Notes under the pieces: model-generated | What the model saw: the letters and a program-made list of their open reading frames with translations, nothing else | The model's database searches: none | What the model was told of the DNA's origin: nothing | Shown here: positions 20,516-45,890 of the stretch, piece after piece | Layout of the letters: every line of letters begins with the position of its first letter | How positions within the stretch are numbered: position 1 is the stretch's first letter | NCBI RefSeq assembly: GCF_900176885.1 | Contig: NZ_LT839648.1 | Coordinates: 2,298,765-2,362,764 of the forward strand | Length of the DNA stretch: 64,000 nt | Origin: Oceanobacillus senegalensis | GTDB taxonomy: Bacteria > Bacillota > Bacilli > Bacillales > Amphibacillaceae | Direction: 5' to 3' | Made by a program: the position numbers and the translations under genes

Positions 20516-20589
20516 TGGAGCGGGTGAAGGGAATTGAACCCTCGACATCAGCTTGGAAGGCTGAGGTTTTACCACTAAACTACACCCGC
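20516..20589 (-). tRNA. tRNA-Gly (anticodon TCC)
   Basis: A complete cloverleaf: acceptor GCGGGTG/CACCCGC, D-stem GTTT/AAAC, anticodon stem TCAGC/GCTGA around the loop CTTCCAA (anticodon TCC, decoding GGA/GGG), T-arm GAGGG-TTCAATT-CCCTT, discriminator T and an encoded CCA. It is the last, intact element of the tandem array at 20590-21054 and is followed by its own terminator. Confidence 0.97.
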
Positions 20590-21054
20590 ATCAGAAATAT
20601 AATTATTCAATTTACAATATCACGAACAACATGCCCCTCCATCTGCTAGCTTTTTCAAAGATGATTCGTGCTTCGGGGCAACTCGTAGCTTATTCGGTGG
20701 AAGTGACGCTCGTGGCTGAGGTTTTACCACTAAACTACACCCGCATGGGAAATATAATCATTTATTTTAAAATACCACGAACAACATGCCCCTCCATCTG
20801 CTAGCCTTTTCAGGGATGATTCGTGCTTCGGGGCAACTCGTAGCTTATTCGGTGGAAGTAACGCTCGTGGCTGAGGTTTTACCACTAAACTACACCCGCA
20901 TAGGAAATATAATCATTCAATTTACAATATCACGAACAACATGCCCCTCCATCTGCTAGCTTTTTCAAAGATGGTTCGTGCTTCGGGGCAACTCGTAGCT
21001 TATTCGGTGGAAGTAACGCTCGTGGCTGAGGTTTTACCACTAAACTACACCCGC
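20590..21054 (-). repeat. Three 155-bp tandem units, each beginning with the 5' half of tRNA-Gly
   Basis: Three head-to-tail units (20590-20744, 20745-20899, 20900-21054) have exactly 155 bp each and differ at only a few positions. In the tRNA direction each starts with the first 31 nt of the neighbouring tRNA-Gly, up to nucleotide 32 in the anticodon loop, then continues with 124 nt unrelated to the tRNA. The non-tRNA part can fold: TGCCCC pairs with GGGGCA, YCATCT pairs with AGATGG inside it, and a bulged CACGAA is complementary to a downstream TTCGTG, a possible pseudoknot. Two promoter-like sites precede the array, and the intact tRNA and terminator end it. The copies are not functional tRNAs because the 3' acceptor strand is absent. 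Confidence 0.9.
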
Positions 21055-21067
21055 ATAGGAAATATTA

Positions 21068-21095
21068 ATTATATCACTACTTTATTTGGTAACAA
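21068..21095 (-). promoter_or_regulatory. Promoter of the tRNA-Gly array (proximal)
   Basis: On the minus strand TTGTTA and TATAAT are separated by 16 bp, and the first tRNA-like 5' end lies about 14 nt after the -10. It would drive the three half-tRNA units and the intact tRNA as one RNA. Confidence 0.7.
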
Positions 21096-21100
21096 AATTA

Positions 21101-21129
21101 ATTATAGCAAGTAAGTTTTAATAATTCAA
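21101..21129 (-). promoter_or_regulatory. Promoter of the tRNA-Gly array (distal)
   Basis: TTGAAT and TATAAT with a 17-bp spacer lie on the minus strand, 33 bp upstream of the proximal site. Tandem promoters are common for stable RNA genes. Confidence 0.65.
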
Positions 21130-38965: not shown

Positions 38966-39147
38966 TAGAAAAAAGCCCGAAAGATATGCTTCTACTATGA
39001 AGAAGCATATCTTTCGGGCTTTCACCAAGCCAAAATATAATGAAAGAAGCACAAAAGATACAATCTATCATTATCTGCTTTTCATAGTCGGTTTATTTAC
39101 GGTAAACCGGTAGAAACTTGCAAGCCATATTCTTGCGATTATATGAA
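38966..39147 (-). promoter_or_regulatory. Guanine-class purine riboswitch with intrinsic terminator
   Basis: The minus-strand RNA shows the purine aptamer: P1 from 39147 (ttcatataatc) closing with gactatgaa at 39081, P2 with loop GAATATGG, then the conserved GCAAGTTTCTACC junction, and P3 with CCGTAAA. The pyrimidine before the 3' P1 strand (gaCtatg) is C, the guanine/hypoxanthine-specific state. Downstream, a perfect 20-bp hairpin (38972-39022) with a T-run forms the terminator, giving an OFF switch for xpt-pbuX. Confidence 0.93.
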
Positions 39148-39175
39148 AACAGTATTCAATTAAGATGATGTCATT

Positions 39176-39385: not shown

Positions 39386-39442
39386 TGATTATAAACTATG
39401 TAGTACAGGCCACATTTGCCGTATTTATATAATAAAAAGTTT

Positions 39443-39540
39443 TAAACCACCACTTCACAAAGTGGGTGTTCGCAGAAATCTTCCTGCCTTCCGCTACTTT
39501 GACGGCCCGGCATTAGGATTCCGATGTAAAACTCCCTATT
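39443..39540 (-). mobile_element. Possible IS200/IS605-type end or guide-RNA remnant
   Basis: GC-rich block. Read on the minus strand it ends ...gcgaacacccactttgtgaa gtggtggttt, with a hairpin (cccacttt...aagtggtgg), and is preceded by an aatgccgggccgtcaaagta segment. Closing hairpins of this form resemble the 3' ends of IS605/TnpB elements and their omega RNAs. No tnpA or tnpB remains nearby. The identification rests on resemblance only. Confidence 0.3.
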
Positions 39541-39644
39541 ATCTACTTAGAGGTTAAAACTTAAATTAAATACGTACAATGCAGCTTGTACTTATATAGT
39601 ACACTTTCTCATCTGATATTACAATAGTAAATTTCTACCAAGTG

Positions 39645-45731: not shown

Positions 45732-45890
45732 TTCTTATCAAGAGAGGTGGAGGGACTGGCCCTTAGAAGCCTCGGCAGCGGACTATTATAGTACTGTGCC
45801 AATTCCAGTAGCAACATGCTAGAAGATAAGAAGAGTAACTAGTCATTATAATTGTCTAACCCTCTTCTTATCTTAAGGAGAGGGTTTTCT
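45732..45890 (+). promoter_or_regulatory. SAM-I riboswitch (S box) with terminator
   Basis: Typical S-box blocks are present: P1 ttcttatc / gataagaa (45732-45739, 45825-45832), agagaggtggagggactggc, agaagcctcggcagcgga and gtgccaattccag. The terminator is aaccctct / agagggtt (45858-45886) plus TTTTCT. The antiterminator is an 11-bp perfect match of gataagaagag (45825-45835), which includes the 3' strand of P1, with ctcttcttatc (45862-45872). SAM should therefore cause early termination. Confidence 0.95.

Follow-up and report, generated by a model that had tools for sequence, protein, structure and literature searches.

Half-tRNA copies carrying a covarying RNA module upstream of cognate tRNA genes in Oceanobacillus senegalensis and its relatives

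Introduction

Why should a bacterial tRNA gene be preceded by several incomplete copies of its own 5′ half, each running into one and the same additional sequence? The question is raised by a locus in a 64,000-nucleotide stretch of the Oceanobacillus senegalensis genome (assembly GCF_900176885.1, contig NZ_LT839648.1, positions 2,298,765 to 2,362,764; the whole stretch is referred to below as the window), in which three tandem units on the minus strand, at 20590-21054, directly abut an intact tRNA-Gly(TCC) gene on its upstream side. We find that the added sequence, here called module M, has a covarying stem, is present in many genomes of the order, and sits in most cases directly behind a 5′ copy of the very tRNA that follows it. 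Our preferred reading, held with less than even confidence and drawn from sequence comparison, is that half-tRNA and module form a composite RNA element that would be transcribed as a leader of the cognate tRNA and would act as RNA, most likely in cis. The arrangement is conserved and apparently new to the literature, a search of the open-access full-text literature having found no description of a half-tRNA joined to a module.

The array upstream of tRNA-Gly

The units have a period of 155 nucleotides (nt) and run in the same direction as the tRNA, and identity to unit 3, over the 151 nt compared, is 98% for unit 1 and 94% for unit 2. Each begins with 31 nt identical to the 5′ end of the tRNA and continues for 124 nt, of which about 82 nt constitute M and 42 nt an AT-rich spacer. 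Period, positions and direction agree with the initial annotation of this locus, which had also recognized that it is the 5′ and not the 3′ end of the tRNA that is copied; it had placed nucleotides 1-32 of the tRNA in each unit, one more than the identity covers. The features, all on the minus strand, are as follows.

21068-21129, minus strand: two promoter-like sites upstream of the array, TTGAAT-17-TATAAT at 21129-21101 and TTGTTA-16-TATAAT at 21095-21068 (consensus matches only)
21024-21054, minus strand: unit 1, 31-nt 5′ copy of tRNA-Gly(TCC), identical to tRNA nt 1-31
20942-21023, minus strand: unit 1, module M (ACGAGC...GGGGCA), 99.6 bits to the M model, 3′ boundary set by analogy with other loci
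20900-20941, minus strand: unit 1, AT-rich spacer, from the sequence
20869-20899, minus strand: unit 2, 31-nt 5′ copy of tRNA-Gly(TCC), by sequence comparison
20787-20868, minus strand: unit 2, module M, 97.1 bits to the M model
20745-20786, minus strand: unit 2, AT-rich spacer, from the sequence
20714-20744, minus strand: unit 3, 31-nt 5′ copy of tRNA-Gly(TCC), by sequence comparison
20632-20713, minus strand: unit 3, module M, 99.4 bits to the M model
20590-20631, minus strand: unit 3, AT-rich spacer, from the sequence
20516-20589, minus strand: intact tRNA-Gly(TCC), 73.1 bits to RF00005
20462-20503, minus strand: terminator-like hairpin and T run 3′ of the tRNA (consensus match only)

Since promoter-like and terminator-like sites frame the array, a single transcript through array and tRNA is plausible, as had been proposed, with the proviso that such sites are consensus matches whose numbers in the window (6 promoter-like against 3.1 expected, 1 terminator-like against 0.7 expected) are to be read against chance. 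An assembly artefact, which the initial annotation had named as a possible undoing of the array, is unlikely, given that a contig of 4.28 Mb encloses the array and that many genomes show this architecture.

Distribution of the module

A query with one unit retrieved M elsewhere in its own genome and in other families; at the homologous loci it lies in tRNA clusters, also before other tRNAs, behind a shortened 5′ copy of the next tRNA. With a covariance model of M (R1), it was detected in 110 of the 249 genomes sampled from the order, representing 61 of 105 genera, and in 18 of 28 genomes of the genus; under stricter filters a sample of the whole phylum gave 2 of 398 genomes, both within the order. 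The O. senegalensis genome itself holds 10 strong copies, and carriers among the matches listed include Geobacillus, Anoxybacillus, Parageobacillus, Cytobacillus, Neobacillus, Halalkalibacterium, Shouchella and Oceanobacillus. The expectation that a covariance model would reveal homologous loci in other genomes, with covariation, was thus borne out.

M matched no Rfam 15 family at gathering or permissive thresholds, the matches being instead to tRNA, 5S rRNA and flanking Bacillaceae-1 RNA; elsewhere in the window Rfam recognizes an ordinary purine riboswitch (39065-39166), 6S RNA (39403-39590) and SAM riboswitch (45732-45832). In plasmid and phage collections, the matches listed mostly covered the tRNA piece alone, with more in two records of Anoxybacillus amylolyticus, pDSM15939_1 and pDSM15939_2 (loci L041 and L042), which are filed as plasmids and match the array query; L042 also carries chromosomal-type genes (Tex, SprT), and both records may be chromosomal segments. 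Eight IMG/VR contigs were recovered, four with tRNA clusters containing M (L304, L305, L306, L310) and four without a full M. Unexpected genus names occur on a few pattern matches, namely L165, L201 (filed as Pseudomonas sp. ISL-84) and L198 (filed as Paenibacillus), and the labels of L165 and L198 are doubtful because Bacillus-type half-tRNA modules are found there.

Coupling of the module to the following tRNA

The rule suggested by the array holds widely. Among 313 M copies (deduplicated by sequence, so that one place present in two differently cut loci may count twice), 273 stand directly behind a 5′ copy of the next tRNA, which is Gly-TCC in 125 cases, Lys in 38, Thr in 32, Asn in 30, Met in 22, Phe in 16, Arg in 8, and Ala and Asp in one each; the remainder comprise 30 without a half copy by score, many of them visibly decayed or second in a row, nine without a next tRNA in the locus, and one more than 600 nt away from it. 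The copies stop between tRNA nt 12 and 31, at a place that is nearly fixed for each tRNA (nt 31 in 122 of 125 Gly copies, 17-18 in all 30 Asn copies, 14-15 in all 22 Met copies), and the sequence 5′ of the break is AGNN-like, frequently GAGCA or CAGCC. Half copies match the local variants of their tRNAs.

The converse view, from the tRNA genes, gives the same picture. A scan with 14 nt and at most 2 mismatches, over tRNA genes with at least 320 nt upstream in the fetched loci (a sample enriched for M), found a 5′ copy upstream of 290 of 1615 distinct genes and of none with shuffled queries; these figures supersede earlier exact-match counts (217 of 1480, 198 of them with M; 218 of 1434), which missed diverged half copies such as Val in Evansella. 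M, or the second module M2 described below, begins within 45 nt in 276 of the 290, and the other 14 carry different inserts by reading, some with an M-like start. Eight isoacceptors account for 282 half copies among 599 genes (Gly-TCC, 102 of 130), Ala, Asp, Val and Arg-ACG for 6 among 239, and all other types having at least 5 genes for none among 764. The main host tRNAs carry GAGCA or CAGCC in their 5′ part, which explains the choice of host only partly because Val and Pro tRNAs have GAGCA at the same place, with half copies at 1 of 53 and 0 of 60 genes, respectively. Outside Evansella, 356 of 367 distinct M matches have an in-line tRNA within 1500 nt downstream, the other 11 being near a locus end (7) or without a tRNA (4, of which one lies beside an assembly gap, two are in the interrupted tRNA-Arg of L219, and the last is L288). 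No 3′ tRNA piece of at least 13 nt was found in a scan of the upstream sides of 1480 tRNAs. ARAGORN calls only the downstream gene, and the half copies lack the features of a tRNA gene, namely both acceptor strands and a full cloverleaf. At several Lys loci of the genus (L274, L275, L280, L292), an AT-rich terminator-like hairpin with a T run was seen by eye a few to some tens of nucleotides upstream of the half copy.

Structure of the module

One stem of M is supported by covariation. In a structure-free alignment of 291 copies, mutual information ranks stem 33-38/76-81 and pair 41-72 highest, and the real pairs in that ranking all lie within these two, one mixed-in neighbour excepted. In alignment A2 (130 distinct sequences, fitted to a model already holding five of the pairs), helix 2, the TGCCCC/GGGGCA stem foreseen by the initial annotation, shows pairing in 98.7% of cells and 5 of its 6 pairs have changed on both sides, pair 43-75 is always paired with 25 double changes, and the covariation score is 0.250 against 0.108 in shuffled and at most 0.078 in slid alignments. 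Two further pairings proposed at the outset fared differently. The YCATCT/AGATGG stem is paired at 70.1% against 69.7% in shuffles, its covariation is 0.064 against 0.059, and column 75, which it would pair with 53, covaries with 43 instead; the argument that a C-G to U-G difference between units keeps pairing falls with it. Neither strand of the CACGAA/TTCGTG pseudoknot is conserved at other loci, as judged by eye. Helix 1 is paired at 92.9%, has no double changes, and is unproven. The window module does not stand out in folding energy (z 0.64), so that the structural support rests on covariation. By inspection, M consists of two similar halves.

A second module and other inserts

A second module, M2, was found with its own covariance model (R2) in 89 of the 249 genomes; 145 genomes contain M or M2 and 54 both. 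It obeys the same rule, with 35 of 44 distinct copies (30 loci) behind a 5′ copy of the next tRNA, six without a half copy by score (decayed, at a locus end, or behind M by reading), and three without a tRNA within 700 nt, upstream of which the sequence reads as a tRNA-Arg half. Since the M2 model matches the M of the window only weakly (13-14 bits, an overlap with M alone), kinship between the two modules rests on inspection. In L146, L182 and L298, the insert reads as starting like M and ending like M2. Half-tRNA inserts of other kinds were also seen, namely long A/T-rich hairpins (L122, L165, L144) and a third type (L048, L051, L278). Folding of three odd inserts gave nothing exceptional (z -1.83, -1.23 and 0.07), so that a structure is not supported for them.

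Precision of insertion

M is inserted into tRNA sequence precisely, as the interrupted half-tRNA often resumes 3′ of it. All seven Lys copies broken at nt 17 do so with at least 4 matching nucleotides, and resumption above controls is seen for Asn (41%), Phe (60% of 5), Thr (31%), Lys broken at nt 26 (20%) and Met (18%). The continuation is short, with whole-spacer scores of most tRNA types no better than shuffled ones. The tRNA of L303 differs from others in having GTGG instead of GAGG, and GTGG is likewise found behind M. Four half-tRNAs carry M and then M2 at two positions with tRNA sequence running on in between. In three of them, all tRNA-Arg (L065, L070, L156), M follows nt 17-18, and in the fourth, a tRNA-Phe (L075), it follows nt 12, M2 being confirmed by the model in L065, L070 and L075 and by reading in L156. 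M is inserted without target duplication at its own ends, as IS200/IS605 elements are, judging from the sequence behind M in the half-tRNAs and from filled and empty sites of the Evansella repeat compared by eye. At two Anoxybacillus loci (L219:1500-2300, L200:6700-7818), modules interrupt a tRNA-Arg(TCT) of which the T arm and the 3′ acceptor strand are kept; this gene adjoins an intact tRNA-Arg and terminator-like sequence.

Several explanations of the junctions were considered and set aside. General target-site duplication, suggested by L089 and L038, is ruled out because the half-tRNA continues behind M, and the idea that M serves as a guide RNA for tRNA DNA was dropped on the same ground. 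A group I or II intron residing in a tRNA would keep both exons, whereas in most copies the tRNA continues for a few nucleotides at most, the tRNA-Arg of L200 and L219 being the exceptions; Rfam scans gave no match to a group I or II intron core.

Constraint on half copy and module

Sequence change was compared among seven Lys loci of the genus whose spacers are homologous, at least two of which (L280 and L281) are paralogs of one genome. Pairwise difference amounts to 4.1% for the half copy, 15.1% for M and 29.6% for the spacer. Of the changes within M, 7 affect the 42 family-conserved positions and 29 the 37 variable ones (p 3e-8). Across 211 first units, identity to the tRNA is 97% for the half copy and 44% for the 25 nt upstream, the former figure being inflated because the units were picked for having a half copy. 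Direct repeats, such as the 14-31 bp ones flanking M, are expected to be deleted unless selected. Module similarity gives only a weak sign of inheritance by tRNA type, the nearest M neighbour from another genus sharing the tRNA in 56 of 142 cases against about 35 by chance, nearly all from Gly.

Copies outside tRNAs

Evansella vedderi (G279; loci L127 and L225-L272) has a nested repeat system of its own, in which 119 of the 150 candidates scored match M at E ≤0.01. Of 42 that were read, 8 belong to half-tRNAs, 32 are at three junctions that recur in a dispersed repeat, and 2 lie elsewhere; in 2 of 7 Evansella loci scanned with Rfam, Bacillaceae-1 RNA lies beside M on the other strand. In two genomes of the same genus as the window, L288, L289 and L290 gave weak M matches (E 2e-7 to 9e-5) with no tRNA near and with flanking motifs in common. 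M can therefore exist and spread without tRNAs.

What the composite may be

In the reading that we favour, one or two modules of about 80 nt within a half-tRNA would be transcribed as the leader of the cognate tRNA, RNase P would cut at the true tRNA 5′ end and release a half-tRNA-module RNA, and the composite would act in cis to tune tRNA maturation, either through competition of the half copy with the tRNA's own 5′ half for the 3′ half or through the module holding a processing factor; the modules would have reached different tRNAs by an insertional process resembling that of mobile elements. Equilibrium folding agrees with the first option in so far as the 3′ acceptor strand goes to the half copy and not to the tRNA's own strand at 77 of 90 loci drawn from 199 (mean 0.78 vs 0.12). 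Several observations weigh against this reading. Shuffled module and spacer fold nearly alike (0.73/0.14), so that control of the strand competition by the module is not supported and a switch stays hypothetical. Two measures of covariation are not clearly above shuffles (11 pair types against 11.2; 6 double-change pairs against 4.2, with 33 of 500 shuffles reaching that number), and Gly copies show no tRNA continuation behind M (1%, not above controls). Half-copy mismatches are commoner in the acceptor strand (76/1862, 4.1%) than elsewhere (82/4695, 1.7%) and for Gly, by reading, mostly break pairing with the 3′ strand, an excess that would reflect either weaker constraint there or homogenization by unequal exchange. 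Some half copies are decayed or lost, M stands outside tRNAs in Evansella and, weakly, at three places in the two congeneric genomes, and a patchy spread with 1 to more than 100 copies per genome fits a selfish repeat. A bolder version strikes us as unlikely: structured RNA domains, mobile and inserting with precision at AGNN-like sites of structured RNAs, would have been tamed in half-tRNA decoys that, in more than half the genomes sampled from the order, serve as built-in switches for the maturation of tRNAs.

The patchy spread leads to the possibility, nearly as likely as the leader element itself, that M and M2 are nothing but minimal mobile insertions, for example non-autonomous relatives of the IS200/IS605 type, which landed in locally duplicated tRNA 5′ parts and survive only beside an intact tRNA. 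Precise insertion without target duplication, the similar halves of M, the Evansella repeat junctions, the GAGCA and CAGCC motifs of the main host tRNAs and the joining of M and M2 parts in one module would all follow, whereas the constraint on M at the Lys loci, the in-line placement of nearly all matches outside Evansella and the near absence of half copies from Val and Pro genes with GAGCA would not. Distinctly less probable is a trans-acting small RNA, in which the half copy would give specificity and the module stability to an RNA that is released by processing at the tRNA and binds a protein or another RNA; a separate structured domain, the dosage that tandem arrays would add and the promoter-like site close upstream in the window are in keeping with it, but trans action would not need the placement, nearly always seen, directly upstream of the RNA's own tRNA. 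The least probable account, to which we give little credence, is a neutral by-product, in which the half copy would stay identical to its neighbour through tandem duplication and unequal exchange among tRNA genes and the module would have no role. In its favour are the excess of mismatches at the half-copy end far from M, which unequal exchange predicts, the match to local tRNA variants and the 75-nt segment between the modules of the eight-copy array at L089; already weakened by the constraint at the Lys loci, it leaves that constraint, the covariation and the rarity of insert-free half copies unexplained.

Relation to known systems

One parallel is the tyrT locus of Escherichia coli, where 178-bp tandem repeats (rtT RNA) downstream of the tRNA each hold a short piece of its 3′ part. 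Both loci have tandem units with a partial tRNA copy beside a tRNA gene, those of tyrT being transcribed with the tRNA, whereas here a 5′ half lies upstream, is interrupted by a conserved module, and recurs at several tRNAs in many genera. Phages and integrative and conjugative elements that integrate at tRNAs also leave a partial copy beside an intact gene; here it is the 5′ half that is copied and the insert is about 80 nt. Non-autonomous IS200/IS605 elements share the lack of target duplication, hairpin ends and a sequence-specific 5′ target, but, unlike dead copies of such elements, M has an orientation fixed with the tRNAs and is constrained in place. Bacillaceae-1 RNA (Rfam RF01690; Weinberg 2010) is likewise a structured RNA of Bacillaceae and adjoins M in the two Evansella loci mentioned, whereas M has no Rfam match and is housed mostly in half-tRNAs. 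The tRNA-Other of Bacillus cereus, a pseudo-tRNA flanking a genomic island with a reported effect on the cell (PMC3399842), is another non-translating tRNA-like gene of a Bacillus, although the accessible part of that report does not describe it as a half copy with an inserted module.

Significance

If the constraint reflects function, many relatives of Bacillus would carry an unrecognized RNA element before a defined set of tRNAs, and this element may adjust tRNA supply; if the modules are mobile, they would represent a very small and precise insertion element whose home is the 5′ part of tRNAs. Either way, a testable rule (half-tRNA, module, intact tRNA) and two covariance models become available for the annotation of these genomes.
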